Origin: Tetraselmis striata
Taxonomy: Eukaryota > Chlorophyta > Chlorodendrophyceae > Chlorodendrales > Chlorodendraceae
DNA: 64,000 nt
Assembly: GCA_006384855.1 (NCBI GenBank)
Contig: VCJN01000224.1
Span: 186,001-250,000, forward strand
Direction: 5' to 3'
Every line of letters starts with the position of its first letter. Within the stretch, counting starts at the first letter, position 1. A model generated the notes under the pieces. The model did no database searches and had not been told where the DNA came from. It saw only the letters and a program-made list of their open reading frames with translations. This document shows, piece by piece, positions 1,096 to 64,000 of the stretch. The position numbers were made by a program, and so were the translations under genes.

Positions 1096-1153
<58 letters not shown>

Positions 1154-5326: not shown

Positions 5327-5329
<3 letters not shown>

Positions 5330-5357
<28 letters not shown>
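5330..5357. repeat. poly-C homopolymer near the oxidase start
   Basis: Nearly pure run of C on the + strand in the 5' region of the minus-strand amine oxidase gene. It is one of about twenty such tracts in the window. Confidence 0.9.
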
Positions 5358-5998: not shown

Positions 5999-6172
5999 TT
6001 TTTTCGCCCCCGGGACAGGACTGGCACCAGTGAAACCCTTGCAGCGTCTCTACGACGGCCGTTTAGGCAGCAATCCAGTTACGGAAAGCCCTGGGTAGGC
6101 GACGCTCCGTTATAGTCATCAAGCAAATTGCCGATGCATTCTGTGAGACTAATTAAAGGCCAGTGACGGAAT
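5999..6172 (-). mobile_element. 5'-truncated LINE copy (3' tail only)
   Basis: About 170 bp matches the 3' untranslated tail of the two longer LINE copies (56.0-56.18 kb and 61.37-61.55 kb), including the shared cccgggggcg stretch immediately before the A-tail, seen here as T's at 5999-6004. Similarity stops abruptly at about 6172. The octamer TGCTGCCA occurs on both sides (5987-5994 and 6172-6179), a possible target-site duplication. Confidence 0.8.
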
Positions 6173-27676: not shown

Positions 27677-30600
27677 TTATGACATGCTCTGCAGATCCGA
27701 GAGCGCCGACTTGATGTAGTTGCTGGACTTGTCCGGGAGGTGGGCGATGAGCTCGTACTGCTGCAGCCCCTCCTTGCCGAAATTCTCATTGCAGACGTCA
27801 AACGTCTTGTTGCGGGCGTTGTGCTCATGCAGACCCTGTTGTTTGCAAGTGGGACAAGGGAGAGGGGGGTGCGAATTTAGACAAAAGGAAGGGCTGTGCC
27901 ATGGTTGCGCTCCTTGCCACACCGCAAAGTAATCATGCGGTTGTGTCATGCAGCTGATTGCGCTCAGGGGGGCGGCATACCTTGACGCAGATGTCAGCCA
28001 GATCGGCGCAGCTGATGCTGTCTTGGATGCGGTTGCTCTGGTCAAACAGCAGGGCCTTGTAGCCGCCGGGCTCCTCCACCAGCTCGCCGGCACGGATGAT
28101 GGTGTAGCTCAGGCCAGAGTTGCGCAGCGCGTCCTCGCCCTTCCTCTTGAAGTCAATCACCTGCACACCGATCACCCGCGACAGTCCGTCACGGGAAACA
28201 AACAGACCTGACAAGCAGCGACCGCAAGCGGCGCAGTGGACCATCGGCCAGCAGACGGCCTGCCGCGGCCGCACCTTCGCGAGCTGCATCTGCTGGGGGG
28301 AATCCCCCGAGGGCGCCTGCGAGCTCTGGGTGGTGCGCGAGATGAGCACAAAATCGGGCTCCTCGCCTGACGGAAGGGCCTTGATGAAATTGATCTCCAG
28401 CTTGAAGCCGGCCGAGCTCTCCGCGCCCTAGCAGACCACCACACGCACGCATGCGCATCAGTGCCATGCCCTCGAAACCAAATGCAGGATCGTGGGAGCA
28501 TGCTCCCGCTGATGCATGTGACTATCCCTGACAGGACATCGTGCTAGCAAGTTATGCACGCCATGCTGCACAACTGCGCATATACCACGCATGGGATGCC
28601 ATGCATGTCAGCACTGGAGTGACTTCAAATGCAGCATGGCATACAAGGAGCACCTAACGCGGCAGCGGGTAGGGTGGCATGCGCGCTCACCCTCTTGGCA
28701 TCGAAGCGGATGCTGATGTGGGCCACGTCCTTGGGATTGACGGGCGCGTCATTGCCGGCGCTCAGCGGGCGGAAGGTGTTGAACGGCAGTCGGACGGTGG
28801 AGAAGCCTTGCTTGGTGTTGAAGCGCGAGGAGTACTTCTCGCCGTTGCTGCGGGGACCGCGTGTTGCCACGGCGCACTCAGCGAGGATGCAATCCAGGCA
28901 TGCATGAGGTGCGGACAACTGACACATGCCACCCGTCTGTCTGTTTTTCGAGACCTCACTAGGCGTGCTGGCAGGGCGCGCACCTGGTCTCCAGCATGCA
29001 TGTGTACGGCTGGCCATCGCCGAGGATCCGCATGAGGAGGCCGTCCGTGCGGTCGAGAAGGCCCTCTTGCAAGTGCGCTCCCACTTCCGCGTAGCCGGTT
29101 CGGGAGTACACCGCGCCTGGGAGTTGGAGAAGCAGACAAGGACAAAAGCTCAGCAAATGTTGCCGGATGGGGGAGGCACGTGGAAGGAGGGGGGGGGGGG
29201 GGGGGGGGGGGAGACAAGTACAGGAATAAGGTGCGCTGCGAACCTGTGAACTGCAGGTTGCTTGCGTTGGTCTTCGCCGACGCATAGTCCTGGGTTTTGG
29301 CCACGGCGCGCGCCGAGGGGGCGTCGCCCACGGGGCCGACGTGCTCTACCGCCCAGGCCTGGGCGTATTCCTGGCGGGCGTCGGCATTCGCACACAAAAG
29401 CAAGCAGTCACTCACGGATCGAACCACCAAAAAGGCGTGAGTACGGCTTGAAGGGAGCGCAGCACTACTTGTGGCAAACAGAGGGGCCCGACAGGGCGGG
29501 AAAGAGGTAGCCATGTTGGGGGTTGGAGAGGATGTGTGGGGTGTATGTGGGTGGGAGGATGGGGGAGGGGACTCTCACCTCTTTCTTGAACTCCGCCACC
29601 ACAGGCTTGGCGCGGCTGGACCTCTGCTTGCCTCCAGAGATTGCCCTCTTATTGTATTGATCCTGAAGCAACCACACAATATCTGCTTTTGAGAATTAAA
29701 GGGGAGGGCTGCCCCGCCTTCTCGCCATTCTTTTGGCCCGGGGACATGCAGAGCGCCATGGAAATATAGGCAGACACACAGAGACAGTGCACATGCGCAG
29801 CAGTGCATGTTCTCAGGGCATCAGGAGGACCAAAAGTACCACCACGGGACCAAAAGCACCTGGAGCGCCTTGACAACGTTGGCGACGCCGGTCTGCTCCA
29901 CTCGGGCGAGATCGGCTGTGAGAGTCGACCGCGCACCAGCGCAGTAGATGACCTGCATTTGCAGTGCCGGGAGTCAGTGGGCAGACTGTCCCACATCACC
30001 CAGACGGACCCTCTCGCCCGCTGCGTTGGTGAGTGCCGTGGGATCGCCATGGGACCAGGGCAGCGCGTACCTTGTCCACGCCCTGCACGGCGTCACGGAC
30101 TTGCTGGTAGTCGCCCACATCCCCCTTCACCACAATCACGCTCTTTGGAAACTCCTTGCTCTCATCGCGAGACATCACCTTCACGGTGTAGCCGCGCAGG
30201 AGCAGCTTGCGCAGCATGACGCGGCCGACGCGGCCGGTCGCGCCTAGCAGGAGCACAGTGGTGTAGGCAGCCTGCAGGGCGCCAGCACTGTTTAAATCCC
30301 GAGAATAAATCCAGGCTGGATGATACATGGGAGAGATGGGTGATAACACTGTTGTAGTTGGGTGGACGGAGACGACAGGGGAGGGAAGGGGGGTTGAGCT
30401 TGTAGAGCACCTGAGGAGCCTCCAGGTCGTTGACATCGTCCACAAAATCCATGCTGGTCGCAAACGATCCCAAACGTGCGAACTTGCTCCACACATCGTC
30501 GAAGGCCGCACGTGACTTGCGTCCGATAACGTAAGGATTGATCTTATTCAGCGCGGACTCCGCCTCCGGCTCGCTTTCGGGTGCGACTTCCGTCACGCCC

Positions 30601-30902
30601 TTGCCCTGCTTCCGCGTGCGGATGATCTCGCCGACAGTCTCTGCTTTCGAGTCGGCTTCCTCTGCCTCGTGCTCCGCCTGCTCCGGCTCCACCAACCGCA
30701 GGTCGGCGCCGCGTTCCGAATCGCCCTCCCGCTCGGCGCGCACGTGGAAGCGCTGGGCCAGCTGTTTTGGGACCTGCTGCAAAGCCGGCTGCCCCACGAA
30801 GGAACGGCGTGCAGCACCTGGGGCCCCTCCGCTACTGTGCAGAGCACCGCGGCTGCTGCCGGGGCGTGTCGCTATGGCGCGGCAGCTGAGCGCAGGTGTC
30901 AT
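27677..30902 (-). CDS. HCF173: HCF173-like plastid psbA expression factor (atypical SDR with CIA30 domain), 10 exons
   Basis: Exons (descending): 30902-30411, 30271-30071, 29952-29860, 29662-29579, 29370-29244, 29116-28984, 28847-28691, 28427-28275, 28160-27981 and 27835-27677. Phases fit throughout, and the total of about 592 residues compares with about 600 in plants. The N-terminus is a transit-peptide-like stretch from MTPALSCRAIATRPG. Then comes a Rossmann/SDR start, TTVLLLGATGRVGRVMLRKL, and GDVGDYQQVRDAV. A CIA30-type middle follows (YSSRFNTKQGFSTVRLPFNT, VAHISIRFDAK), then SDR resumes (LSYTIIRAGELVEEPGG). The end, ELIAHLPDKSSNYIKSALS, mirrors the plant HCF173 C-terminus. Plant HCF173 binds psbA mRNA in the stroma and supports D1 synthesis. 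An in-frame upstream ATG at 30992 is an alternative start. A poly-C (coding strand) tract lies in intron 5. Confidence 0.92.
29189..29211. repeat. homopolymer tract in HCF173-like intron 5
   Basis: G run on the + strand, that is, a C run in the transcript of the minus-strand gene. Confidence 0.9.
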
Positions 30903-31967
30903 GTTGGCAGAACAGCGCCCGACTGGTATGTTTATAGGAGACCCAACCAGACGAGCGGGTTGCAGCTCGGCGGGGAAGAGGAAGCGAGACAATATACGGC
31001 TCCAAGCCCAGCAAGGAAGCGGTCGTACTATGTCCGAAGAGACCCACAGCCGACACGGCTAAGCAGTAGGTGAGGGAAGCGTGCGGCGACCTCTGCTGTG
31101 ACAAGAGGGGGGGGTATCGTTGAGGCGGGTTCTGCGACGGCGCTGCCTGCATTTGCTAAATCCACTTTCTGTAGTACCCTGTAGCCCTGCCTGTGGTCAC
31201 TCTTCGCGTCTCTTGTCATCAGTCCTACCTGTAACCCCAAGCGTCGCCTCATGACGTGTTAGCGATGCCACGCCACAATATCGGCGACGTGGCTGCGCAA
31301 ATAAGCGGACAGACACGCACGAGATCCGCTGCTCCCGGCCGCAGGAGCCCAACGCCATATCCAGTCCATCCGCCTGATCGTCGCAGCCGCGATAAGTCTC
31401 GTACATCGCGCCGGCGCGCGTGCTGCTGTGGTTAATTTATTACGGTAAATTATTTTGTGGCACGCTGTAGGCGCGACCCCTTGTGTTCTGTACGAGGTAC
31501 AAAAGAATCGCCATGGCATCGGTACGTCGTAGGAAGCGGCGGAGCGGTGATTACAGTAACTCGACACCCACTCCGGATGGCCAGCCCAAGCATGTAGTAG
31601 CAGTTTCAACAATGTCATACTAACATACAGGGCGAGTGGACAGCCATTTGATATTTCTGGCTTGCCGTGTCTGTCGGGCTGTGCTGCATGTATGGGGACA
31701 GAGCAAAGCGGCAAAGCCGTGGTGGGGCGGGGCTGAGAGGACGCACATGTAGCACCACCCGTAGCACCGCACCACACCGCCACTAGACCCGATGGCTGTG
31801 TGTGCCTGTTCGTGATGGCTGGCACACCCTCTTTCATGCCATGAGAATTTATTCATTTTCAAATTTCTTGGTAGCTACAAGAGGCGACGGTTCTGATGCT
31901 GTGGGTGGAGAGTACCTCGACTGCTTACTTCGACGCCTGGTTCTGAACCTGTGCTGGAGCGAGCCGC
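30903..31967. other. intergenic, upstream of the HCF173-like gene and downstream of GDP-mannose pyrophosphorylase
   Basis: No gene is supported. A 192-codon minus ORF at 31259-31837 has no family resemblance. An AATAAA-containing stretch (minus strand, about 31850) lies roughly 115 bases beyond the pyrophosphorylase stop and could be its 3' end. Confidence 0.45.
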
Positions 31968-33290
31968 TTACATGATGATCTGGGGCGTGGCGATGCTTTC
32001 CTTGATCTCTTTATGCGGCAGGACGATGCCTCCGTTGACATACACCTCATCCTTGAAGTGCACGTCCTCGCCGATAACGCTGCCGTTCTCCACACGGCTC
32101 CACTTGCCGATGCTGCTGTCCCACCCCACGATGCTGTTGAGGACCTGGGAGAAGTCCTTCGCCTTTGTGCCCGACATGAGCACGCAGTTCCTCAAGCGCA
32201 CACCGTCGCCAATGACGCAGTCCTTCCCGATCGCGACGTCCGGGCCGATGAGGCAGCCATTGCCGATCTTCACGCTGGGATCGACCAGCACGTTCCCTTG
32301 GATGTGGCCGCCCGAAGAAAGCTCCTGCGACTTCTTGTTCCTCATGGACGACAGGTGCAGGGTGAGCCCGGTGAGGTAGTCCTTCGGCTGGCCCACGTCC
32401 ATCCAGTACCCGGCAAGGGTCATCGCGAACAGCTTCTTGTCCTGCGCAATCTTCGGAAACACCTCCTTCTCGATGGAGGTAGGCTTCAGCTCAATGCGGT
32501 CCAGCACGCTGGGGCTCAGCACGTAGATGCCGGCGTTGATCTTATCGCCAACAAAGGTTTTGGGCTTCTCCACAAAGCGGTCCACCAGGCCTGTTCCATC
32601 GGTGACCACCACGCCGTACTTGGAGGGATCATCCACCTGTGAGAGCATCAATGGCCTTCAGGCGAGCTTCATGGCAGAACTACCACATCAGCTGAGGCAT
32701 GCTGGGCGACTCAGGCTGCCACATGACTGGACACCATACACACAGGAAGCGCAATAAGCGCGCAGAGCATGCCTGTGTAACGAGCAGGGTGCCTTCTGCG
32801 TTGTTTGCTTTATGAAACTCCACCATCTCTTTCAGAGGGTACTCGCATATGACATCGCTGTTCAGCACAAAGAACGGCTCGCCGCTGCCATCGTCCAGCA
32901 GGTCCCGCGCGATGGCGAGAGGCCCGGCGGTGCCCATGGGCTCCTCCTCCTGGCTGCATACGATGCTGATTCCGACCTGCGGCCATAGAAAAGACATCAG
33001 GCGTGAGACAAGTGACTCCGGCAAGCGCACCCGAGCCGAAGTATCACATCAGAAGTAGGGCGAGCTTGGGAGCGGGGCACCTTGTCCTCCCACTCGGAGA
33101 TGAACTGCTTCATCACTGTCGGGCGATAGTTGATAGCCAGGACCACTTTGTCCACACCCGCCTCTTTCAGAGCCTCGATTTGATGTATGATCATGGGCTT
33201 GTTTGCAAAATCCACTAGAGGCTTGGGCACGGTGAGCGTCAGGGGACGCAGTCTCGTGCCGAAGCCACCGACGAGAATGAGAGCCTTCAT
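31968..33290 (-). CDS. mannose-1-phosphate guanylyltransferase (GDP-mannose pyrophosphorylase, beta/catalytic type)
   Basis: Three exons, 33290-33081, 32976-32773 and 32636-31968, give exactly 360 residues, the usual length of GMPPB/CYT1/VTC1 proteins. The N-terminal nucleotidyltransferase has [20 protein letters not shown] and [13 protein letters not shown], then [26 protein letters not shown] and KYGVVV. Later motifs are [20 protein letters not shown] and [13 protein letters not shown]. The C-terminal left-handed beta-helix shows hexapeptide-type repeats ([20 protein letters not shown]), ending [16 protein letters not shown]. The enzyme makes GDP-mannose from mannose-1-phosphate and GTP in the cytosol, feeding glycosylation, wall polymers and ascorbate. 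Intron 2 appears to use a GC donor (ACACAG|GCATGC). Confidence in identity is very high. Confidence 0.97.
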
Positions 33291-34231
33291 CTTTCCTGCG
33301 CCGAGTCAGGGCATCGCCACCGCGTCAGCATGGGCGGGGATAAGGGGCTGGGGATAGCGACAGCATCTAAATTGTCGTTGATCGACATTCTCTTTCCTCG
33401 TGTCAGCGGCGGACGAGCCGCACTTTGATAGGTAGCGAGCGGCCTGCTGCTACAGATCTCAGGCTGTGCCGCGCTGCACACAGTACATACCTGCTCGTCG
33501 CCGAGAAGGGGCTTGCTGACGTGTGTGGCGCGATCCGCGCTGGCTGTAGAGACAAGGCCGACCGACCGGGGGCAGGGAATCTAAAGCCAGGCGGTATGTG
33601 ACAACAGCGACGTGTTGTATTTGAGCAGTGTGGCTTGGGACGACGATTCGCCTCGGCTTACTGTTTTGGTTGCGGTCTGTTGACACGGTCGATTGGCCGT
33701 CGATGCGGCGGCGCGGTTTGATGGGGTGCCGATATGGCGAGTGGTGGGCGGTGCTGATGCTGATGAAACAAATAACGATCGCCGGCCGGTGCTAATAACT
33801 ACAAAAGGGGATAGTATTATTTACATGAGCTAGCAGCAGGAGGGGGTATTATTGATAACATGCGCTAGCAGCAGAAGGGGATAGTATATCCCATATACCT
33901 GCTGTATATATACCTGAATATATAAGGTGCGATGAGCCGATGAGCCGATGACCAGCGTGAGGGGCTATGCCTACACTGATATTAAGTACAGCTCCACGTA
34001 TATCCCGTGCACTACGGAATATCAACGGAAAGATCATACATAAAATCCGACTATCCCCGTAAGGTAATTGTCCCGCGAATTGTCCCGCGCCGACATGGGC
34101 CCGCCGTCGCTAGTCATCCCGGACGGAAGCCATCAACAGCCCACCCGACATAGCCGCCCGGCCCCTTTCGGTCCAAACCTAACGCTGGCAGTACGCGGCG
34201 CGAGGCGCGTAGGCAGAGGACACACCACACC
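33291..34231. promoter_or_regulatory. divergent intergenic region between pyrophosphorylase (-) and plastid-protein gene (+)
   Basis: About 940 bp lies between two divergent start codons and so should hold both promoters. No specific element is identified. A 20-25-bp motif, ATTTACATGAGCTAGCAGCAG, occurs near 33819, is echoed at 33858, and recurs at about 50067. Confidence 0.4.
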
Positions 34232-37200
34232 ATGTCTTCGTGGATGAGCTTGGGACGGCAGGCCGTGGCGGCCAGTGCGTGCTTGGGCCCTCCCGCCGCG
34301 TCAGCTTCCGCGAACCCGCAGCCCTATGCGGCTCCGATATGCACCGCATTGCGGCAGCTGAGTAGACAGCCTGTCGCAGCGAGTGGAAGCACCGCAATGG
34401 CCAGGACGATAGCACCGCAACCAGCACCGCATCGGCGAAGCTCCCGCGCGTTGCGCCTATGCGCCACCAGTCCCGATGGCGGCTCGTCAGAGGTACGGCG
34501 TCGCTCCGCGGTTACTCTATTTACCCACCACTTTCACCTCTGTCAAGTCCGACACCAGCCGCGTGAGCGGACACGCGACAGACGCACAACTTCACCAGTG
34601 CCGCTTTAAAGAAGAAGCTCGCACTCTATCTTATGGCTGTTTTGAGATAACAGCGAGATGGGAGGGGGTGTATCTAGTATGCCCTTCGCATTGGCGCTCA
34701 GTCCAGAATACTATGTGTTCCAGTGCATATTTTGAATCCAGTACAAGGCGGGAACTCCCCGAGGGCAACACTAGCGAAGCTATCCTTTTTACATCTTAAA
34801 TGCAGAAGATAATCCAAGTCTACAAGTTTTTGCGTCTTTCCATCATGCGGTTCCCACATTTGGCGGTGCTGAGACCGTTGCCGGGAGCAGGAGTTTGAGT
34901 GGAGAAGCGCGGAGCTCGACGAGCTGTCGGCAATGATGCCGGACCCGGAGGATGACATATATGAAATAGGTGCGTGCGCCACGGGGACACTGTGGCCGTT
35001 AGCATGGATCAACCGAATTCATGGGCTATTTGACCCACCATGAGGGCGCAGAACCACATGCTACTCCTTCATCCTTGCGCGGGATGCGTGATGTCAAAAG
35101 ATACTTGGATGCAAATACGCTGCTCAACTCCCTGCATGCCGCGGTGCGCTCACAGATGAAGAAAACTCGGAGTATCAGCGGCTAATCGCGCTGGGAATGT
35201 CGGACAACTCTGACTTTGACGACATCCTGGATGAATACATGTGAGAGCGTGCCTGGATGCCGCGTGCCCGGACATCCCGGGCCCCCAATGCTGCTGTGCT
35301 GGGAGTGCCATGCCCTCTGATGCCACACCAGCGCACCCCGCGTGAATGGCAAACATATTTTCGCACTCATCAGCCGCCTGATTGTGGTGGGCTGGAGCAC
35401 CCGGTGGCGGTTGATTTCATGGCCACATGTTGGCATATATATCACGCATGTCAGCATTCTCAAAATCTGCGAGATGTGGAAAGCCTGGGCACACGGGTAA
35501 CCCTCGCCGCAGAAGTCTGGGCGATGTTTGACCTGGCTTCCTGGTGTGTGACCATGCGGTTCAGGTCGCGCATGGAAAGCAAGCAGGGGGCGCAGGACGA
35601 GGAGGAGGCGCCCAAAGCGGCAGAATGGATGATCGAAGCTGGCGCGAGGGAGCATGTGGACGGGGAAGACATGGCGAGCCCTCGTCGCCGCAACTCTGCG
35701 CACGCACCCCTGCGAGGCTCGCCACCTGCGTGTGGACACTCATGCGGTGCTTGCGGTCTGTGTGCAACAGGAAGCGACAAAGGAGCAGATGGCGATCAAC
35801 AACTTTCACATCAGGGCGGCGTTCAAGGATGGCATAATCCGCAACCGCACCGACGACTCCATTCTTTTCAACATTCTGAACTTCCAGAGGGCGCACAACA
35901 GGTAGAGGGCTATGGAGCGCCGCGTTGCCCGGTGGGCACGGCATACATCATACATGCCCATAAACGTTCCTGTACGTATCTGGATATACAGACACATATC
36001 TACATATATTAAATATTGTATATATTTATGGATGTACATACGATGATTTAGATTCACTGATACATATAGCAGCATTTGGCTGAAATGGCCACAGGTGGGA
36101 TTGTATGTTGGATGCATCATGCCAGCGGAAGGGACTGGTCATTTGAAACGGCATGTGTGACACTGGCAGGTTCAAGATGTGCAAGGAGATTGGCCGGTGG
36201 GTGGAGTTCTTTGAGGAGCATTCCGGGGAGAACTATTCCGCGGTCATGACGGTGCCGTCCTGGATCAAGGCGGTCACGATGGTCAACTACGAGTTTGAGG
36301 AGTACAATGAGCAGCACCGGGTAAGCATTGTCGTGGCGTATCGCGGGCCACTCCTTGGCCGCAGCGCTGCCGGTTCAAGTGATAGTTTTGCCGCTCCCTC
36401 TGCTTGCCGCACCGTCGATGTGGGTCTGATATGTTGTGTGTGCCCGCCCCTTTCTGACCGACCAGCTGGAAGACCGCGACGAGGTGGACGACATCGACTA
36501 CGAGGAATCCATTTCCCTCGAGCACCTGACGGGCGGATCGGGCGGCTTGTTCAAGCACAAATTCGAATGGGAGAACCCGCCCCTGGAGATTCTGGGGAAG
36601 GAGCACCTCACCACCCAGGATGGCTACCCAAAGGTTTGCAGCCCCATCTGCAGGAGCTGCGCTTGAATACAGGATACCGCACCATAGGCTTTGGTGTGTG
36701 GGCGGATCACATGAAAAAGGTGAATTATTAGGTGAAAAAGGTGAAAATAGGTGAAAAAGGCAGACCCGAGTTGGGTTTTCTGCGCGGTTTTCATGTCGGA
36801 AACCAAGAGGTTTAGCGAGCCCAACACCGGATTACGGAACCTGGGGAGGTTCAACTCATTGAAGAGGTCGGATTTGTTTACTCTGGGCCTCCAATCCTGC
36901 AATTACGTGGTGCTGTTTCCGCGGCTGCGCACGATGCACCTGCGGCAGGCTGCTATCGACGAAGCCAACAAGCTGGCGTCGGACTTGCTGTACTGGCAAG
37001 GGAGCAGCTTGCACATGGGCCACTACCGCAAGGACATGCTGCCAGACTACCTCAAGTTCCAGCCGATTCCTGACCACCTGGGGAACCTCACGGATGAGGA
37101 GCTCACGGAGGAGCTGGGCGTCGTCATGGACGACCCGCACCCCTTGAACGAGCGGCTGGTGCTGACCCCGGGCTGGCACACGTTCATCCCGTCGGGCGTG

Positions 37201-39550: not shown

Positions 39551-40236
39551 ACACGCGCACCGTCAGTAGCTTGGGGTTCGCCATGGAGGATAGCATTTCC
39601 AGAGTGAGTTGTCAAGGCTTGACGATCCTGGTGTCTGCGGTGCCCTGTTCTCCAATAGTACGTGGCGAACAGCACAGATTACGTGCTGTCGTGCTGGGTC
39701 CACCTTCAGGATACAGTCAGACGCTCCCTTGCGATTCGTTTAACAGTTTACGCCATCTAATCCTTACGCCGACCCCGCCGTACACCAGCGTCGCGAGCTT
39801 GTCGCGCGTCGAGGCACGCAGCGGCCGACGTTCAATTGGCGGAACGTCGCGCAGCGCGCGGAAACCAAGCTCGCGCCGCAAGCAGATGACAACGTACAGA
39901 AATAGTACAGGTACCAGGTTGGTCGCTACTGGTTTGAATTACAAAAAGGGCAGTAATTCAGGTAACTGTACGTGTAGCGAGCTCCCGGTGTGCTGAATTA
40001 CGAAAAGGCGATTTCAACATGCAATCGAGTTCGGTTCTGCCAAAAAGGGGGCGGAGGCCGATTTACATGTAAAAGCGCCATTGTATGGCAGTGAAGGTTC
40101 AGCGAAAGCAAGGGAGGTTTCAAAGTTGAGTCTGGTTTTGCCAAAAAGGTCGCGCAGGCTGTTTTACACGGTCAAGAGCCGAAATTGGCAGGAAGGTTTA
40201 GCGAAAAGCGTGGAGGGAAAACGGAGTCAGGGGGGG
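39551..40236. other. spacer between the Nudix gene and the recombinase element
   Basis: No gene seen. From about 40009 there are two imperfect tandem copies (about 110 bp period) of a block. Each begins with a CGGTTCTGCCAAAAAGG- or TGGTTTTGCCAAAAAGG-type sequence and passes through TTTACA to GAAGGTT(C/T)AGCGAAA. These belong to the repeat family around the element. Confidence 0.55.
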
Positions 40237-40422
40237 CGCTGCGTGGAACGCAGCGAAAACTGGAAGATGGCAGGCTCAGCTGTTCTGGCTGCTTTTATGT
40301 CTACTCGTGCTGCACCCAACAAGGGCGCAACAACAGTTACTAGTTCCCGTACCACTGCGCAGCACTTGTAGCTGAAAAGCGGTTAGGTCAAGGATGGAAA
40401 CCCCATAAACTAGTTTAGATCA
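40237..40422. repeat. 186-bp direct repeat, downstream copy
   Basis: Base-for-base identical by eye to 43153-43338. It opens with a perfect 8-bp stem hairpin, CGCTGCGT-GGA-ACGCAGCG, and closes with ACCCCATAAACTAGTTTAG. In one + frame it reads NWKMAGSAVLAAF followed by a stop after AQHL. Confidence 0.9.
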
Positions 40423-40423
40423 T

Positions 40424-40449
40424 TTCAAAGTTGAGTCTGGTTTTGCCAG
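40424..40449 (+). repeat. 26-bp flanking motif next to the direct repeat
   Basis: TTTCAAAGTTGAGTCTGG then TTTTGCCA directly follows the 186-bp repeat. The same sequence occurs at about 40119-40144. Related forms occur at about 40014 and at 43598, after another repeat module. Confidence 0.7.
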
Positions 40450-40501
40450 TCTTGAGCGAACGGAGAGAGCGGGGGATTGACGGAGAAGGGGTAGCGCCAA
40501 G

Positions 40502-42127
40502 TCATGAAGGAGGCACTGGGAAGGCCACCGCTGCGGAGTCCTGTTGGACTTGGAAGTGGCGGAGAGGGGCGATGTGTCCAAAGAAGAACCACGCGCCAGG
40601 AGAAGGAAGAACGTTGGGGTCGATGTAGTCCAGAACGACATCAGAGTTAGTGGCCCAACCGCCCTGGTAGCGGATGTGGGACAGTGGCGCTCCAATGGCG
40701 TTTGCTGCAGAGGCTGCGCCCTTGCGTAGACTGTGTGAAGTCCAGGAAGTGCCAGCAGGGGGGGCAGCGTTGACTAGGCTGACTGCTGTAGACAACCAGT
40801 CTGACATCGTAGTAGCAGTCCAAGGTTTCGACTGCTCAGCCACATTGACAGCCCAGAAGTTGGAGGTAGCCAAGCCAACAGTAACCAGGGGGACAGACTG
40901 GACGTTGTCGATGAAGTAGCGCAAGAGACGTGCCACTCGAGGGTGCTCGGACACTGGAAGGAGAAGTACGCGCAGGTCGTCAGGTCCCCGCCGGCCGGCG
41001 CGACCCTTCTCGCGGTAGATCTGCAAGGTGATGTTGTAGGTGTCGACATGCACATCTTGCACTCGACAGGAGACGCCAGTAAGGCCCCTGGCAAAGAACA
41101 GGAAGTTGACAACCGAGGCCAAGAGGGCTCGGTAGTCGAGGTGGGACTCTGGGTAAGGAGCAGACACAATTAGCTCGGCCTTTGAGACGAAGCGGTAAGC
41201 TACATCCGCAGGCAGAGGGACACGCAAAGGGGCAGCGTCCAGTCGACGCTGACGTAACATTAACCCACGTCTTGCCGAAGTGAGGTGTAGGCTGTCCTTG
41301 GCGATCGGGACGAGGTTGTGCAGCTCGAAGAAGGTGTTGATGGCAGACAGATAGGGCTGCAGCGACTTAGCTGCGATATGCCCTCGCTCCCCGATCCAGG
41401 CAACGTACCGAACAACAGTAGCAGTAGTCGCCTCTAGCGGGCTGATGTTCTCGGAGTCGTGGCAGAACTCAGCGAACTGAGCCAACCTGCCGGCGTAGCT
41501 CTTGAGGGTCTGAGCGCTGAGGGAGCTGGAGAGCAGGTCGAGCGTCCGCTGGCCTAGCTCGTCTGAGCCGAACGCGTCCTGTAGTCGGGATCGCAGTGAC
41601 GCAGCCCACGGAGCGATAGCTGCGGGCTCGTCGATTACGTAAGTGCGTCGTTTTACTGACAGAGTGCCACCGGGACGGCTACTGTTCGCAAAGTACTCGG
41701 CAGCAGCGGTTAGGTTCCCGGCGGTTGGCCGGTAGTTGCTGGACGGGTTTGCAGTAGCTTCAGTACGGGTTTGCGGGGCTAGGTTCAGGTAGGAGGGCCG
41801 CCCCGCGCGCCCTTCGCGCTCATAGCGCCTGTCCCGTGCGTAACGTACACGCGCGAAACTTGGTCGTTGCGAACCGGTTGTAACTCGTAGTGTAACAACC
41901 GACGAACGCAGAGATGGGGTTGTAAGAAAGGCGGATGGTTGAGCCGCCATGTGCAGGTGTGCGGATGGTTGAGCCGCACTCGGCTGTAGCTGTAAGAAGC
42001 GCCGCACCGAGGAAGGTCTAAATGAAGTCTGTAAGGTGGGGGGGTCAGGTCCTGACACAGGGCGCTCATCCCGTCGTTGAGCTGCAAGGGTGCGCCTTGC
42101 GGCGGTCACCGAAAGGTGGCCTCGCAA
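40502..42127 (-). CDS. tyrosine recombinase/integrase
   Basis: 541-codon ORF. The first 170 residues are low-complexity and partly Pro/Ser/Arg-rich, so the true start may be at an internal Met. An N-terminal SAM-like helical domain follows (LSAQTLKSYAGRLAQFAEFC, then YLSAINTFFELHNLVPIA). The catalytic domain has the full set of expected residues: Arg in LFFARGLTG, Lys in IYREKGRAG, HxxR in SHSLRKGAA, Trp in YQGGWATNS, and the nucleophile Tyr in VVLDYIDP. This is the DNA breaking and joining enzyme of the element. It resembles eukaryotic recombinases of the DIRS/Crypton type more than phage enzymes, judging by sequence style only. The ORF is uninterrupted. Confidence 0.88.
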   Translation of the reverse strand: MRGHLSVTAARRTLAAQRRDERPVSGPDPPTLQTSFRPSSVRRFLQLQPSAAQPSAHLHMAAQPSAFLTTPSLRSSVVTLRVTTGSQRPSFARVRYARDRRYEREGRAGRPSYLNLAPQTRTEATANPSSNYRPTAGNLTAAAEYFANSSRPGGTLSVKRRTYVIDEPAAIAPWAASLRSRLQDAFGSDELGQRTLDLLSSSLSAQTLKSYAGRLAQFAEFCHDSENISPLEATTATVVRYVAWIGERGHIAAKSLQPYLSAINTFFELHNLVPIAKDSLHLTSARRGLMLRQRRLDAAPLRVPLPADVAYRFVSKAELIVSAPYPESHLDYRALLASVVNFLFFARGLTGVSCRVQDVHVDTYNITLQIYREKGRAGRRGPDDLRVLLLPVSEHPRVARLLRYFIDNVQSVPLVTVGLATSNFWAVNVAEQSKPWTATTMSDWLSTAVSLVNAAPPAGTSWTSHSLRKGAASAANAIGAPLSHIRYQGGWATNSDVVLDYIDPNVLPSPGAWFFFGHIAPLRHFQVQQDSAAVAFPVPPS

Positions 42128-42163
42128 GGCTCCTGCAGCTCCGACGAACGGCGCCCCACACCG

Positions 42164-43039
42164 TCACTCGTGCTCACCTTCGCGGCCACGTCCACGTCCG
42201 CCGCCACGTCCTCGCCCACGCCCGCGACCTGCAGCTGCAGCCGCCACTCGAGAAGTAGCGGTCGCCTTGGCGCTGCTGGCAACGGTCGCCTCGAAAACAC
42301 GACGCTCGTAGTCCCGCATGAGGTCCCCAAAGATCGCGGAACCCAGATGCTCCGAAGCAGGCTGAAAATGCTGAGCTCGCAGCACATCCAGAACACCTTG
42401 GTCACCGTGCACACGCTTGATCTCATTGAGCTTCCGTAGGAAGGCCAAACGAAACCGAAACGCCTTGTCGATGGCCTCGGCGTGGTTCCGGGCTCTCGCG
42501 AGGTAGGGGGTGAAGTCCTGGTTGCTGGAAGGGACGTAGGGCAGTAGCTCGTCGAGCGCCACGAAAAGGGCGGCCATGTGGGCCCCGAAACACGACATCC
42601 ACAAGTACTCCTCCTGGGCCGGCAGACGCCGGTCATCCTGCTTGAGGTACTCGTTCGTTAGGTCGGTGCTCAAAGGGAAAAGTCCAGGCACTCGGCTGAC
42701 CGGTCGAACGGCCTCGTAACCAGACTCTGCTCTCTGCAGTAGCTCTGGCACCGCGAGGTAATCATCCTCGGCACTCACGGATTTTGCTCCGACACGGCCG
42801 CTCTGGGCTAGCTCTAGCAAGTCGGGGCGCTCTGCGGCTCCCCCGCTGCCTGTCGGCTGTCTCGCGAAGCGCTGCCCTGAGCCGGAGCCATGTGCCCCTT
42901 CTCCATCAACAACGCGATCACGAGCCGTCAATTGTGCCACAGCTGTAGCCAGCTCTCGCAGTAATGAAGACTGGGCCCTCATATCTGCGTTCAGCGACTG
43001 CAGCGTCGGCTCAGCGACGGGTTCTTCTCCATCTGACAT
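42164..43039 (-). CDS. Gag-like ORF1 protein of the recombinase element
   Basis: The start is the ATG giving MSDGEEPVAEPTLQSLNADM; an in-frame ATG 11 codons upstream (43072) is also possible. The roughly 290-residue protein has an N-terminal helical stretch that may be a coiled coil (LRELATAVAQLTARDRV), a Gly/Ser linker, and a globular helical core (YLWMSCFGAHMAALFVALDE and AIDKAFRFRLAFLRKLNEIK). It ends in an Arg-Gly-rich nucleic-acid-binding tail ([20 protein letters not shown]). There is no zinc knuckle. Such proteins package nucleic acid in retroelements, and that role is inferred here. It ends 36 nt before the recombinase ORF, suggesting one transcript. Confidence 0.7.
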   Translation of the reverse strand: MSDGEEPVAEPTLQSLNADMRAQSSLLRELATAVAQLTARDRVVDGEGAHGSGSGQRFARQPTGSGGAAERPDLLELAQSGRVGAKSVSAEDDYLAVPELLQRAESGYEAVRPVSRVPGLFPLSTDLTNEYLKQDDRRLPAQEEYLWMSCFGAHMAALFVALDELLPYVPSSNQDFTPYLARARNHAEAIDKAFRFRLAFLRKLNEIKRVHGDQGVLDVLRAQHFQPASEHLGSAIFGDLMRDYERRVFEATVASSAKATATSRVAAAAAGRGRGRGRGGGRGRGREGEHE

Positions 43040-43152
43040 AGTAACGCACGGACGTACGGACGAGAATATCACACTCGGGTGGCGAGCCGGGTGTGGTCTT
43101 GAACAACCTGGGGTGACCTTGCTCGCAACGGGTTACGAGACAGTTTTTACAT

Positions 43153-43338
43153 CGCTGCGTGGAACGCAGCGAAAACTGGAAGATGGCAGGCTCAGCTGTT
43201 CTGGCTGCTTTTATGTCTACTCGTGCTGCACCCAACAAGGGCGCAACAACAGTTACTAGTTCCCGTACCACTGCGCAGCACTTGTAGCTGAAAAGCGGTT
43301 AGGTCAAGGATGGAAACCCCATAAACTAGTTTAGATCA
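43153..43338. repeat. 186-bp direct repeat, upstream copy
   Basis: Identical to 40237-40422, with the same hairpin at its first 19 bases. The flanking bases differ (AT before this copy, GG before the other; GA after this copy, TT after the other), so the repeat limits are sharp. Confidence 0.9.
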
Positions 43339-43382
43339 GAATGTCGGAGGAGCCCGCAGGGCGGAGGCGGAAAACGGGAGGG

Positions 43383-43590
43383 CGCTGTCGAAGGCAGCGA
43401 GCTGGAAGATGGCAGACGGGCTGCTGGTGGCTGTCCTTAGTATCTCCCCAGCCGGGAGTGCAAGGCTCGCGGGCGATGGGGCAGCCCGTACTAAAAACCC
43501 GATTGTACCGTTCCTAACTGGTTAAAAACACAAACAGACCGTACGGGTCGCACTAGGACAGTAAATGTTGTTAGAAACCCCATAAACACG
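43383..43590 (+). repeat. related repeat module, copy B
   Basis: It begins with a CGCTG...CAGCG stem, then GAGCTGGAAGATGGCAGAC and a frame reading SWKMADGLLVAVLSISPAGS. It ends with GTCGCACTAGGACAGT and AGAAACCCCATAAACACG. It is followed by the same GGTTTTGCCA motif seen next to the 186-bp repeat. Confidence 0.75.
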
Positions 43591-45410
43591 ATTACAACAT
43601 TTCAACATGCAATCAAGACTGGTTTTGCCAGGTTATACGCGGTTCGTTTACGACTGCGAGCGTGGGCAGTTGGCAGGCGCCGGCTTGACGAAGGCGGAAG
43701 ATGTCTTGAGTTGAAGAAGGGGTCTCGCGCCGAGAGGTTAAACCTCCATCGAGGCGCAGGCGCATAACAAACGCGGACGGGAGATGTTGACGCCGGCGCG
43801 ACATGAGCCGGACGTGTCACGGAATTAAGGTGCCGTCTCCCGACGGCGCCCTAGAGCATTTGCCGCGCGCCGTGGTGTCGTGCGGCACGAGCCGGACTTG
43901 CAGGCCAGTAGAAGCAAAGGTAGACGTGGCCAAGTTGGCGACGAGCGCCTTACAAAGCAGCTGCACATGCACCAGTAGGACGAGTACAGCTGCGCGCACG
44001 AGCGCGCGAGCGCGCCGCGTACAACCAAGTGAACGAAGTACTGGCACGATGTACGCGACGCGATGGTATGTCTGCACATGTACCGGCGCTGCACGTTACG
44101 AGGGATGGACACGCAACAACGCGCAATGACAGCGATGTCAGGCCGCTGCCATCAACAGCGGTGGTTGTTTCGCCCCCTCGAGCGAAGGGCGGCGGGTGAA
44201 ACGTACGGCGTCGAGGGGCGCTGGAGCGTGGCACCCAGTGTGGTCGTGTCGCATCGGCTCTTAGGTGTGTGGCGGAGAGCGGTGAGCCGGCCGCCGCTGC
44301 TGCACCAGCGACGGCTGCTGACCACCCCACAAGGCGCAGGCTTAGGATGACGCCACGAAATGTACCAGTCGCGTTAGGTGGCGGAGCTGTCCCCCAGCGG
44401 ACAGCTCGTGTTGTCACAGATGAGACGTCGTGACGTCGGGAGCAAGTTGGCCGGCGCAAAAGGCCCTTGTAGCCTATGCAGGCCCGTAACGATGCCGATG
44501 ATGTCGGGGCGAGGGTGACGACGAAGCGGCCGCTGCTGCTGCACCAGCGACGGTCGCCGAGGTTCCCAACCCAGAGTCGGCCAGGGGTAGTTACGTACTC
44601 CGCGAGACGTCACGCACGCCAGGTGGTAGAGTTGCCCCCCGGCGGGCAGCTGCAGGTTGCCGTGGTCTTTGTGACGACGACGTTGCAATAGGAGGCGTCG
44701 GAGACGCGTCGGGACGAACCGCACAAGCGCCTCCCACTGCGGCCACAGCACACGTTGTTGAAGCATGAATAGGGCGAGGGCAACGAGCCCTCTCAAAACA
44801 CCGGCGCATGAGCGGCGCCACCCTCGTAACGCACCAATTACGGGAGTAGTTATGGAAAACCACAGCGTGTAACGACCGTTGATGCCACGTCGCCCTGCTG
44901 CGAAGACACGCGGACCGGGTTGACGTGTCTTGCGGGACAACACGTGGCCACCCCGACGACACGGACGTCCTCCTCCGTCCGCGCTGATTTGTAGCGGTAG
45001 GCGTAGTTGTCGTCGTTGACAACCGTGACGAGCAGCGGCCATGGTACCGAGCGCGTCCACCTAACCCAACCTCAAGAGTTGACTATTGCGAGAGGGTGCT
45101 CCAATGCGGGAGCCCCGAAGCAGGCCTGTACTGCAACTCGACTTCGGGTGTTGAGGTTTAACCCCCCCCCCCCCCAGCTCCAATTCCTTCCTGTGCGCAT
45201 CGCTACCCGAAATGTCCCAGCTGCAAAGCCATGGCAAAACGGAAAACGACCTCGGGCGCACGAGCAGGGAAAACCACATTGCCGAGGGGTTGTCTGTCGC
45301 TGATGTTATAACGCATGTGCGCGGCACGACGACTCACTACCGGGTGGACGAACCTCGGTGCGGACTTGTTTAGCCTCAGCGACCCTCGCGCGCACAAGTA
45401 CGCGAAGCCG
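43591..45410. other. gene-poor spacer with internal repeats
   Basis: No gene supported. The segment GCTGCTGCACCAGCGACGG occurs twice (about 44296 and 44534) in a similar context, suggesting a diverged duplication. A C run lies at about 45163. Long ORFs here (for example 44374-45060 minus) are compositional. Confidence 0.45.
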
Positions 45411-45629
45411 CAGTCGAAGGCAGCGAGCTGGAAGATGGCAGACGAGCTACTGGTGGCTGTCCTTAGTAGCTCCCCGGCCGGGAGTGCAGGGCTCGCGGGC
45501 GATGGGGCAGCCCGTACTAAAAACCCTATTGTACCAGTTCCTAATTGGTTAAAACCACTATAACAGACCGTACGGGTCGCACTAGGACAGTCAATGTTGT
45601 TAGGAAACCCCTAAGCACGTTTAGAACAG
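45411..45629 (+). repeat. related repeat module, copy C
   Basis: About 90% similar by eye to copy B across its whole length, with the same frame (SWKMADELLVAVLSSSPAGS), the same GTCGCACTAGGACAGT block and the same AGGAAACCCCTAAGCACG end. Confidence 0.75.
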
Positions 45630-52363: not shown

Positions 52364-53175
52364 GGGCCACTCCAATAGCGGCACTAGGCCGAATGTGATG
52401 TGAAGGCGCCGACAGGAAAGGAGCTTCGAAGTTGAGGTCTCGCAGCAAGGAGCGGAAGTGGGGGGTCCAACCCAAAACAGGGCGCCACGGGCGTGCAACA
52501 GACGCATGCCACCCTACGACAGATCCGCCGCCAGCTCGGTCGCGTCCTTTTCCGCCAAACGTAGAACGCCTTCCCCAGCACAACATCCCGGGCCACTCCG
52601 ATAGCGGCGTTGAGCCGAATGTGATGTGGAGGCGCCAACATGACAGGGTGGGAGAAAGTGCTCAACGAGTAGGGAATGGAGAGCCGACCGGGCCAGCAAC
52701 GACGTAAGACGCCGGTGTCCAGCGCGCGTTGTTCCGCCCAGCGCCAGATCCGCCGCCAGCTCGGTCGCGTCCCCTTCCGCCGAACGTCGAACTCCTTTCC
52801 CAACACAACATCCCGGGCCACTCCAATAGCGGCACTAGGCCGAATGTGATGTGGAGGCGCCGACATGACAGGAAGGGAGAGGGTGCTCAAAGAACAGCGA
52901 ACATGGACTTGACCGGGCCAGCAACGACGTAAGACGCCGGTGTCCAGCGCGCGTTGTTCCGCCCAGCGCCAGATCCGCCGCCAGCTCGGTCGCGTCGTCC
53001 CCTTCCGCCGAACGTAGAACTCCCTTCCCATCACAACATCCCGGGCCACTCCAATAGCGGCACTAGGCCGAATGTGTTGTGGAGGCGCCGACAGGACATG
53101 AAGGGAGAGGGTGCTCCAAGAACAGCGAACGGGGACTTGACCGGACCAGCAACGACGTAATAGGACGCCGGTGTC
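52364..53175. repeat. 226-bp tandem repeat array, about 3.5 units
   Basis: The block GGGCCACTCCAATAGCGGCA starts at 52364, 52590, 52815 and 53043, giving periods of 226, 225 and 228 bp. Each is followed by GCCGAATGTGATGTG and GAGGCGCC, and preceded (units 2-4) by CGCCAGCTCGGTCGCGTC. On the minus strand the units stay in one open frame (52384-53430) with a period of about 75 residues (HHIRPSAAIGVARDVVLGKE, then GTRPSWRRIWRWAEQRALDT). Coding is possible but not shown. Confidence 0.85.
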
Positions 53176-53399
53176 CAGCTCACACTGCTCCTCCACGGCA
53201 GTGGGAGCACGGGCGGGGCCAAGGCTACCAAGGCGCCACCCGTGCACGATCCCCGCCGCCCCCATCCCCATCCGGGGGTGGAGGCGGAGGAAGGGCCCGC
53301 GATTCCGAGGGCCGAGGACGGTCGTCTGGCCCGCCCAGGTGGCGGGGGGTGGGTGGGTAGCTGGAAAAAGTAATCTGCCGGTGTATAAATAAGGCACAT

Positions 53400-56185
53400 T
53401 ATGCTGCTGCACGGCATAGGGTCCGGACACTAGTACGTAATAACCGCCGCCGCCAAAGGGAGCGGGCCGTGCTAAAAGCGGTTCAGGATTTTAAGAAGGG
53501 TGGTGGGAGACGGGAGTTCTGGAAGTGGGCGCGCTCTCTCCGTAAGGGGCAGGGTTCATTCGAGGGCGCGAACGAAACGCGATCCGGTATCGGGGGTACT
53601 TCATACCGAGCCGGGCGAAATCAATGCGTGCTGGGCGCGGCACTATCGAAAGCTGCTGCGTGACCCCCACCCCCTAGCACAACGGGTTGCGATATACCGT
53701 GCGGCGTGGGAACACCGCCACGGTACATCCCCACCCATTGCCCCCGCACTAAACGGGATTAATGGGCGTATAACATGGGAGGAACTAGTCAAGGCTCTTA
53801 GGCGTTTAAAAAATAATAAGGCCCAGGGGCAGGATGGGATCACTGCAGAGGCTTTAAAATTGGCGATATACGCCCCGAATAGCCATTTTGGCAAGGCATT
53901 GCTGGCCTTAATTAACGGGATATGGACTAAGAACTACATCCCCCAGCAGTGGCGTAGCTCGGCCATAGTATCGGTGCCCAAGAAAGGCGACGCGACCGTT
54001 ATGGACAATTATATGGGTATTTCGATTATGGGTGCCGCTATGAAACTCCTTATGACCGTCATTTCCCAACGCTTGCAAGACGTCTGCCAAGCTAAAGGGA
54101 TAATCCGCCGTTGGCAAGCGGGTTTTATGCGGAATGAGGAGGGCCCAATGCAAGTCGCCAGCTTGTTCGATATCGCGGCTCGTCGCCAAGCGGCAGGTCT
54201 ACCCACCTACGCGGGTTTTATTGAGTTTAGGAAGGCATATGACACCGTACCTCATGAGCTTTTATTCCTAAAACTACAAGCCATAGGAGTTACGGGTCAT
54301 ATGCTTGCCTTCATTAAAACTTTATACAGGGATAGTATGGTACGGGTTAAGACAGGGGTGGCCCCGGAAACACTATCAGACCCCATACCCATAGAGCGTG
54401 GCCTCCGACAGGGATGCCCCGCTTCCCCCATCCTATTTAACATATTTATTAACGATATATTCGATGGGGTAGAACATCTAGGGTGTGATGTACCAGGGTG
54501 CACTGACACATTAGCGGCAAGGCGACCACTAAGGGTGCCAGGTCAGTTATACGCGGACGACGCTGTTGGTATCACGGGCTCGTTCGATAACCTGCATGCC
54601 ATGTTCGCCCACTTCTCGCAGTGGGCGGAGTACCATTTTATGGGGTTTGGGGTACTTAAGTGTGGGGTGATGGCATTAGGCCGATATTCCGACGAGACCG
54701 CGTTACGCGAACAAGCTGCCCGATGGCAGCTTGGGGGGAAACGGGTACCGGTTGTAAATGAATATAGGTACTTGGGTACGGTCATTAAGTCGGATTTAGG
54801 TATGCAACACAGAGTAGACGACCGGGTTAATAAGGGTAAACGCGCTATTGAGGCGCTCGATTCGGTATTAGTCGGTGGACGGGACATAATTCCTATTAAT
54901 GTGCGTGTGTCGGTTTTAAAACCTGTGTACTGCCGCTTTTAACTTATGGGTGTGAAGTATGGGGCATGGATAGAACTAGCGGCGCAAATAAATTACAAAC
55001 CGTACTCAATCAGTGCTTGCGTTGCCTCATTGGGGTAGGTAAAAACTCCCCTGGGGTGGCCACTGCACCGATGATGCGGGAATTGGATATTGCGCCCATA
55101 GAGGCTACGGCCGCTGCGGCACGGGCTCGGGGGTTCCTTAAAGCATCCGACTTGAATACATGTATAACCCATTTAGTAGATCAGCCAAGTCGGGCGCGCC
55201 CTAACACGTGGACGTCGGGGACTGTGCGGTGGTTAGATCGACTAGCTAGGGCGAACGTAGGGCTAGCTGAGGGGGCGCATCTTCCACTTGAGTGGAGGTC
55301 ACTAGCCGCGCGCGATGCCGCTAAACTAGTAAAGGCATCGGTGTGGGCGCGTTACGAATCGTCGGTATCGTTAGCACGCAATATATATATAACACCTGGG
55401 GTATATATGCGTCCAGGCGTCCTATGCGTCAAACCCGTTGCCACAGTACGGTGTGGGTGTCCCCGCGGGGGTTGTGGCCGGGTTGCACATTATGATACAA
55501 TTACGCACCCGAGTATTTCCCACTGCCCGCCGATTGGCCCGGATTCATGCCATGCGTGAGCGGTTCCTTGAACACTGCCCTGCATGTGGCGGAGGTGAAT
55601 CTGAGACTATCGAACATATGTTGGTGGAGTGCCCGCGGTGGGGGTATCACCGTCATAATTTTGGGTTGTTAGTTCCGGAGTTCAGGGATTTTATTAGTAG
55701 TCAGGTTAGTGCGTCAACGCCTGAGGACTTAACTGCCTTGCTTGGGCGGGGTCCCCCCCTCCCTTCACGGCGCTCTGGATTCTACTGGGAATGGGAAATT
55801 TTTCCAGCTATGGCGTCGGGCCCTCCCTCACATTGCTTTTTTTGTTGCACATGTATCGCACTCCCGAAATGCTTTGCTCCGCGGGTTGGGGCTTGCCCGC
55901 AACTCGCATTACTCGAATGGGCCGACGCCCAAACGGGTAGGGCGGACCTTTCGTGAGTGCCGGGTATTTTGATGGCAGTGTTTTAGACGGTGATCCAACA
56001 GTGTTGGAAATTCCGTCACTGGCCTCCAATTAGTGTTACGAAATGCTTCGGCAATTTGCTTGATGGCTATAACGGAGCGTCGCATACCCAGGGCTTTCCG
56101 TAACTGGATTGCTGCCTAAACGGCCGTCGTAGAGACGCTGCAAGGGTTTCACTGGTGCCAGTCCTGTCCCGGGGGCGAAAAAAAA
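53400..56185 (+). mobile_element. non-LTR retrotransposon (LINE), copy 1
   Basis: Reverse-transcriptase-bearing element ending in an A-run at 56178-56185 after CCCGGGGGCG. Upstream sequence in the RT frame is readable from about 53400 (AVLKAVQDFKKGG, REFWKWARSLRKGQ). No apurinic endonuclease domain is seen, so the copy is probably 5' truncated or the 5' part is missing. From about 53653 it matches copy 2 at 61370-63905, in opposite orientation, almost base for base. Confidence 0.88.
53469..55956 (+). pseudogene. LINE reverse transcriptase with zinc-knuckle C-terminus, frameshifted
   Basis: RT motifs in order: FIEFRKAYDTVPHELL (block A), IERGLRQGCPASPILFNIFI (block B) and QLYADDAVGITGS (catalytic YADD). 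A C-terminal zinc motif follows, HCPACGGGESETIEHMLVEC. The frame is broken at least three times. The first break is near 53570, between SLRKGQGSFEGANET and GVLHTEPGEINACWARHY. The second is near 54918, where a T-run has four T's against five in copy 2. The third is near 55385-55440, before the zinc motif. Such proteins reverse-transcribe their RNA at the nick; this copy cannot make a full protein. Confidence 0.88.
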
Positions 56186-56876
56186 GGCACGACGGCACTA
56201 CTGCCAATCAATAATGCACTGCGCCGCGGTACGGGCGCGGGTAGACTACCTGACTTATCTGTGACTACCTGTGCGAGTACATATGCCACCCTCGACCGGT
56301 ACCCAACGTACCTACGTACCTACAGGTACCGTCGGATACACGCGGGCAGTCGTATTAGACTTTCCTGATACGGTACCCGTACCTCAGAGTTGTCTACGCG
56401 ACCGGTAGTGTCGACTCAGCATCGTGGTCTTCGAGCCGGGGTCAATTGGTCATTGCTTGCATGATAGTGCGACTCAAGCACGAATCTGTCCGACACAAGT
56501 ATGCTGACAGTATGACGTTGACGTTGACGTTGGCGGCTCACGAGCTTGCTGCCGGTACGGACAAAGCACCGTAGGAGCGTTGTCCAATTGCTAACAGCAG
56601 TCGTAGCACATCTGCGGGCGAGCAGCAGTCTGACGAGGCCAAGGAGCGGACAGCGGTAAAGAGACAACCGCGGCTTCTGGGCAGCGGCGCAAACGCATCT
56701 TGGCGTCGTGACGCTTCGACCCCACGCTCACTCCTTTACCAGACCTGACGGGGTGGCACACGTGGCGCGTAGGGCAGTGCAGCCTCAACGGCGGGGCCGC
56801 CCTACGCGTTACGTGGCAGCGCTTGTTTGTCGGGGCCACGGCTAGCAGCGTGTTCGGGGGCGCTACCGCTGACAGG
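56186..56876. other. spacer upstream of the glycosyltransferase gene
   Basis: No gene seen. GTACC/GGTACC motifs are frequent at 56220-56380, and a GACGTTGACGTTGACGTT triplet repeat lies at 56514-56532. It presumably contains the glycosyltransferase promoter. Confidence 0.45.
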
Positions 56877-63912: not shown

Positions 63913-64000
63913 ATACTATGGTACTCGCTACTCGCTGCTGGTAATGGAAAAAAAAACTCTGGTACTTCATAGCGTTGGCAATGCGAACGCTCGCTGCTGG
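63913..64000. other. right edge of the window
   Basis: Short sequence with two CTCGCTGCTGG copies and an A run, no feature assigned. Confidence 0.3.

Follow-up and report, generated by a model that had tools for sequence, protein, structure and literature searches.

How can an element that encodes a tyrosine recombinase (YR) and a Gag-like protein, and that leaves no space for a reverse transcriptase (RT), become abundant in a genome? The question is raised by a locus in Tetraselmis striata, located in a 64,000-nt stretch (hereafter the window) of assembly GCA_006384855.1 that spans positions 186,001 to 250,000 of contig VCJN01000224.1 on the forward strand; all coordinates below are window-based unless another locus is named. 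An earlier note on this DNA had proposed an element at 40237-43338 with no RT, and had interpreted it either as a new architecture or as a derivative that borrows RT yet keeps its own packaging protein and integrase. Our analysis supports this proposal, as no examined copy carries RT between the two open reading frames (ORFs). The best explanation as a whole, to which we assign a probability of roughly 60%, is a semi-autonomous family of YR retroelements in which the recombinase would be made as a Gag-YR readthrough fusion, RT would be supplied in trans and a circular form would be integrated.

To define the element, we compared 21 copies with unrelated flanks, comprising the window copy and 20 of the 37 near-identical full-length matches described below. 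This sets its limits at 40118-43338, a length of 3,221 bp; the right end given in the earlier note stands, but the left end lies 119 bp further left in all 21 copies. In the orientation of the window the order is A1 (26 bp), C (93 bp), B1 (186 bp), A2 (26 bp), YR, Gag and B2 (186 bp); the minus strand encodes both genes. A1 (40118-40143) is the left-terminal 26-bp half of the split direct repeats, with the terminus TTTCAAAGTTGAG..., and shared sequence stops here in 21 of 21 copies; likewise, sequence is common up to the element terminus TTTCAAAGTTGAGTC in every one of these copies and then diverges. Segment C (40144-40236), which lies at the left end only, between A1 and B1, is common to the copies, being 1 base shorter in L013 and shorter in L027, the copy in which the left segment is internally reduced. 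B1 (40237-40422) is the internal 186-bp repeat and adjoins A2 (40423-40448), where the 26-bp terminal repeat recurs internally, whilst B2 (43153-43338) is the right-terminal repeat and forms the 5′ end of the coding strand. The complete identity of the two 186-bp repeats noted earlier is borne out (100% between B1 and B2 in the window copy), and their type can be refined to split direct repeats, with the 26 bp of 40118-40143 recurring at 40423-40448. The resulting A1-B1-A2-B2 arrangement is the layout of PAT elements, as set out in the cited part of PMC4157794. Because B1 abuts A2, joining the two termini of the element would recreate the internal sequence GATCA/TTTCAAAG. A TATA-like sequence, CATAAAAG, is a candidate promoter at 43208-43215 in B2 (minus strand), with a second copy at 40292-40299 in B1. 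Both 186-bp repeats also carry at their inner edge a perfect palindrome, CGCTGCGT-GGA-ACGCAGCG (40237-40255 and 43153-43171), which in B2 is written CGCTGCGTGGAACGCAGCG.

The Gag-like protein (42167-43039, minus strand) comprises 291 aa from the first ATG, within an open frame of 302 aa (42164-43072, minus strand), and ends in the RG-rich C-terminal tail that had been described for an intact ORF. The YR open frame (40502-42163, minus strand) extends over 553 codons from the Gag stop and contains a SAM-like N-terminal and a recombinase C-terminal domain; in comparisons with Pfam it matches Phage_int_SAM_1 (5.5e-8) and Phage_integrase (0.0021, below the cut-off of that family). The recombinase was likewise described as intact, and its 541-aa frame at 40502-42127 indeed contains the boxes FARGL, REKGR, SHSLRKG, QGGW and DYID (starting at residues 345, 372, 464, 488 and 500, respectively), which we take to be catalytic. 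The description of the recombinase as an ORF of its own needs revision, since the frame is open but without an ATG over the first 71 codons, and the Gag frame runs into it past one TGA. Together the frames and repeats leave no space for RT, as had been pointed out; RNase H and a Dam-like methyltransferase are not present in the element and would have no room, and the Gag-like protein has no Pfam match to a zinc knuckle.

If the window copy were simply an internal deletion, other copies should carry an RT-RNase H block between the two ORFs, the test named beforehand in the earlier note. Searches of the assembly (224 Mb, 2903 contigs) identified at least 38 full-length DNA matches, 37 at 99-100% identity and one (L031) at 84%. 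We also examined seven older copies, six at 88-96% identity together with L031, which belongs to both sets; all seven align over positions 1-3221 of the element. No RT-RNase H block was found in any of the 38 full-length matches or the seven older copies, and end-to-end alignment revealed no inserted sequence large enough for RT between the two ORFs in 7 of 7 older copies. The genome-wide search with the Gag and recombinase proteins that the earlier note had proposed returned, among the matches listed, 80 for YR, 130 for Gag and 150 for a Gag fragment (360 in total), which merge into at least 263 distinct places on 232 contigs. Because it occupies so many distinct places, the element is not a chance arrangement. 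The best matches listed, a set biased toward intact copies, are almost all stop-free (80/80 for YR, 128/130 for Gag and 149/150 for the Gag fragment). No relatives were found in viral_contigs with either YR or the Gag-like protein as the query.

The recent movement suggested earlier is supported by the compared copies, since B1 equals B2 and both frames are open in 21/21, and exact uninterrupted sites were recovered for 4 of the 21 (the window copy, L016, L020 and L024) when joined flanks were searched among the retrieved sequences. The empty-site match inside locus L024 extends over 162/162 bases; the joined flanks of L011 matched simple repeats only and yielded no empty site. Insertion occurs without target duplication, as no flank repeat of 3-8 bp was present in 20 of the 21 copies and L014 showed a 3-bp match, and there is an insertion preference in all 21 for a purine at position -1 of the left end and for A or T as the second base past the right end. 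Amongst 20 young copies there are no variable sites in the repeats vs 64 elsewhere, where 9.7 would be expected with independent sites, and fewer if a template were shared; this count left out L019, which differs in length by 2 bp, and, on account of the left segment, L013 and L027. Such invariance may reflect constraint. Head-to-tail arrays were also observed, with a spacing of 2916-2918 in C2249 (~52800-62400), C2200 and C1388, and of 3203 in C764 (~25400-34800), where a B repeat is 16 bp short and joined to A1. The 2916-2918 spacing equals that between the two B repeats, which is the element minus one end segment, as expected from a one-B circle or from unequal crossing-over. The arrays suggest products of circles or of recombination, and do not discriminate between models of replication.

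Evidence bearing on replication comes from the older copies. Counted relative to the 186-bp repeat of the window, changes identical in both repeats vs changes in one repeat only number 7/6 in L036, 8/5 in L035, 10/14 in L034, 3/3 in L033, 2/8 in L032, 7/14 in L037 (where 2 more differ) and 8/21 in L031 (where 1 more differs). Under independent drift, we estimate, the closer copies would have well under one identical change common to both repeats. The B repeats therefore look as though a single template had served to renew both, as reverse transcription would do, with gene conversion as an alternative. Potential sources of RT are present in the same genome. L029 (~1502-7357) encodes a Gag with a zinc knuckle, an RT-RNase H-methyltransferase and a YR, and has split repeats of 206 and 68 bp; L030 (~1153-7988) is an RT-bearing PAT-like element with a Dam-like methyltransferase and split repeats of 268 and 121 bp. 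A search with the RT of L029 gave 77 matches listed, 23 of which are full length without stops. Given that this genome contains PAT-like elements with RT and open frames, provision of RT in trans is the best reading, and we consider it the probable one. The right end of L029, AAGGAAACCCTACA, resembles the GGAAACCCC... end of the element, as judged by eye only. At C389 and C542, RT matches also lie ~4 kb away from truncated YR frames.

The most credible alternative holds that the element is DNA-only, the recombinase excising or copying a circle and reintegrating it as proposed for Cryptons, with the first ORF a nucleic-acid-binding accessory (for DNA or RNA) and RT never involved. The examined copies do lack RT, as do Cryptons, which encode a recombinase without one (in the cited parts of PMC4157794 and PMC3212892), and the arrays of period 2916-2918 and, in C764, 3203 fit circles or recombination between repeats, although unequal crossing-over also makes arrays. 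A high copy number is feasible as well and does not separate the models, as Cryptons reach thousands in medaka (>2,700 autonomous and non-autonomous copies in the cited part of PMC3212892). However, excision and reinsertion alone do not account for identical changes in both repeats, which gene conversion could nevertheless produce; terminal inverted repeats and long direct repeats are both absent from Cryptons in the account drawn from PMC3212892, RT-bearing elements of this genome share the split-repeat layout, and the ratio of products expected from readthrough suits particle assembly. We therefore regard a DNA-only element as unlikely. Rather unlikely, too, is a self-sufficient third class lying between Cryptons and YR retrotransposons, that is, a coat-protein element with a readthrough-packaged recombinase, amplified by host polymerases and using no RT from any source. 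Were it true, the element could be either an intermediate stage of the union between a Crypton and a long terminal repeat (LTR) element that has been proposed to underlie DIRS-type elements, or the result of its reversal.

The junction between the two genes bears on their expression. Gag and YR occupy one frame, parted by a single TGA that is followed by CGG (42161-42166, minus strand), a leaky-stop context linking the two frames. The sequence TGA-CGG-TGT is found in 27/28 copies, the exception being L034 (TGA-CAG-TGT). Type II readthrough is characterised by UGA followed by CGG or CUA, often with a stem-loop ~6-12 nt downstream (in the cited part of PMC11166343), so that the same 27 of 28 copies carry a stop of this type. 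A long RNA stem-loop, a candidate readthrough stimulator, is predicted at 42059-42157 (minus strand), starting 6 nt past the stop. In the window copy, the 127-nt stretch beginning at the stop has a predicted folding energy of -68.9 kcal/mol (z -4.29, with 0/200 shuffles as stable). A folding scan of 66 sequence windows gave the lowest z, -4.39, at +22 nt from the stop, compared with a median of -0.33, and a separate calculation for a scan-type window beginning at the stop itself gave -4.22; z values for the four older copies folded, out of seven, were -2.73 to -3.17. In the 71 codons before the first ATG of the YR frame, comparison of the window copy with L036 shows 8 synonymous and 2 nonsynonymous codon differences, a skew from which this stretch looks translated. 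Because of the shared frame, the conserved TGA-CGG context and the downstream predicted structure, readthrough into a Gag-YR fusion is the probable route by which YR is made. Such a fusion would place YR where Pol sits in gammaretroviruses. The alternative that YR is translated separately from an internal or non-AUG start, for instance the TTG at 42127, with TGA-CGG incidental, is favoured by the position of this TTG 36 bp past the stop and by the fact that a synonymous skew before the first ATG appears in just 1 of 4 informative comparisons. We nevertheless consider it improbable, given that a single frame with TGA-CGG is kept in 27 of the 28 copies, open directly from the stop and with strong predicted structure just downstream.

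Comparison of the subfamilies indicates that both proteins have been maintained while diverging without RT. For Gag, the ratio of nonsynonymous to synonymous divergence (dN/dS) is 0.09-0.29 in 21/21 pairs of 7 copies, at a synonymous divergence (dS) of up to 0.40. Values for YR codons 1-456 are 0.13, 0.18 and 0.19 in three pairs, and the whole-length value for the window copy and L033 is 0.21. Whole-length YR comparisons with L036 (0.36-0.44) were set aside, L036 being frame-shifted near its end. The youngest copies alone contain 29 synonymous and 31 nonsynonymous changes and 0 stops, vs ~19, 39 and 2 expected, a result superseded by the subfamily comparison. The sequence comparisons thus place both proteins under purifying selection, Gag more clearly than YR. 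Because older copies lack RT and both ORFs are selected, the element is a lineage rather than one deletion. An ancient loss of RT is a possible origin of this lineage, but it is very improbable that the element arose from an RT-bearing split-repeat element by internal deletion and was amplified passively, with its ORFs mere leftovers: although RT-bearing split-repeat elements occur in the genome, Gag-only LTR derivatives (TR-GAG) move (according to the cited part of PMC8704663) and YR is damaged in 6 of the 7 older copies, selection on both ORFs across subfamilies is unexpected for leftovers, no RT-bearing parent sharing the ends was found among the best 40 of 2506 candidates, and the two RT-bearing split-repeat elements analysed from these candidates and from the matches listed in searches through recombinase families and the Dam methyltransferase, L029 and L030, have unrelated proteins.

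Taken together, the element behaves, on the best reading, like a YR retroelement with outsourced RT. In the mechanism we propose, element RNA would be translated into the Gag-like protein and, via UGA-CGG readthrough stimulated by the stem-loop, into a smaller amount of the Gag-YR fusion, whereby the recombinase would be built into Gag particles, like Pol in Gag-Pol viruses. The source of RT would be the PAT-like split-repeat elements in this genome that do encode the enzyme. Through its own split repeats the element could have its cDNA completed and closed into a circle, and YR would integrate the terminal junction of this circle, GATCA/TTTCAAAG, at weakly specific sites without target duplication.

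Several observations weigh against this interpretation. With regard to a helper, neither Gag nor YR of L029 and L030 has detectable similarity to the proteins of the element, and no matched helper was found among them. Pfam, PHROGs and PDB contain no homologue of the Gag-like protein outside its low-complexity RG tail, so the label 'Gag' is applied here on the basis of position, tail and selection. With regard to YR, L032 and L033 have a dN/dS of 0.46, at a dS of 0.03, and the damage in the older copies is extensive: the frame is broken in L031, L034, L035 and L037, L036 has a frame shift ahead of the HxxR box, and L033 carries Met in place of Arg 347; L032 is the only one of the seven with both frames open and boxes unchanged. 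With regard to readthrough, the stretch before the first ATG is not skewed in L032 (3:3 synonymous:nonsynonymous), L033 (3:3) or L037 (5:5), and the other three older copies are frame-shifted there. Strong folding occurs elsewhere in the element too (z to -3.90), covariation in the stem-loop is not above that of shuffles (2 two-sided pair changes vs a mean of 1.0, 110/500), bases of the stop codon itself are paired in the consensus fold and in that of L036, and UGA is assumed to be an ordinary stop in this organism. Finally, the genome searches score the best candidates, so that decayed copies are under-represented and copy totals are lower bounds.

The element is itself inserted into an older, related split-repeat element, N, whose left fragment occupies 40012-40117 (no strand assigned) and which is uninterrupted in L010 and L031. 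The remainder of N lies at 43339-45628 (no strand assigned), its right end having been set by eye from the similarity of termini. The long repeats of N (~43374-43599 and 45400-45628) are 90% identical, its termini are related to those of the element, and four of its frames contain no recognisable domain. Elsewhere in the genome N is present in at least 39 places at 85-91% identity. The window also contains RVT_1 matches in open frames at 53500-54942 (plus strand; 2e-22) and 62067-63998 (minus strand; 2.7e-25), which belong to other retroelements. Separately, a recombinase frame of 410 aa at C1804:118938-119783 scores 117.6 and 62.2 bits on both Pfam recombinase domains, far above the others listed, and is possibly of bacterial or organellar origin.

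YR elements have been classified as either recombinase-only DNA elements or RT-bearing retroelements (in the cited part of PMC4157794), and a high-copy lineage with Gag and YR and without RT breaks this two-way split, uncoupling packaging, reverse transcription and integration. No description of such an element was found among the titles and abstract openings listed in searches of an open-access library, which included searches aimed at readthrough and at TR-GAG and had Repbase outside their scope. How YR elements replicate is still described mainly by a model. The compact size of the element, its many young copies and its known empty sites make the replication cycle directly testable, and the family constitutes a natural setting in which to test whether RT acts in trans in YR elements; moreover, the Gag-stop-YR layout suggests delivery of the recombinase inside a particle.

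Amongst known systems, the PAT-like members of the DIRS group (Pat1, Toc3 and Kangaroo) share with the element split direct repeats, a Gag-like first ORF, a YR and insertion without target duplication, and Toc3 and Kangaroo also have a Gag without a zinc knuckle (in the cited part of PMC4157794). In contrast, the element is devoid of RT, RNase H and methyltransferase, is only 3.2 kb long, carries YR in frame past the Gag stop and is present in hundreds of copies, so that it has the repeats and YR of a PAT element without the RT-RNase H and methyltransferase that define the group. Ngaro and VIPER likewise combine split direct repeats and a tyrosine recombinase and have no methyltransferase (according to the same part of PMC4157794), but they contain the RT-RNase H that the element lacks, which excludes it from the Ngaro group. 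With Cryptons it shares a tyrosine recombinase without RT and insertion without long target duplication; it differs in its Gag-like ORF under purifying selection (dN/dS 0.09-0.29) and in its 186-bp and 26-bp split repeats with shared changes, whereas Cryptons have short (4-6 bp) terminal direct repeats and no long ones as described in the cited part of PMC3212892. The second ORF and the long repeats thus set it outside the Cryptons. TR-GAG elements also retain Gag and presumably obtain RT from others, but have LTRs and a single Gag ORF, and thus no integrating enzyme of their own (in the cited part of PMC8704663), whereas the element keeps its recombinase. At the level of expression, UGA-CGG is shared with the type II readthrough of plant RNA viruses, to whose downstream stem-loop the one predicted here may correspond, and the proposed fusion of an enzyme behind a structural protein with the type III Gag-Pol readthrough of gammaretroviruses. 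Unlike in these viral examples, the product encoded downstream of the stop is a recombinase rather than a polymerase or a coat extension.

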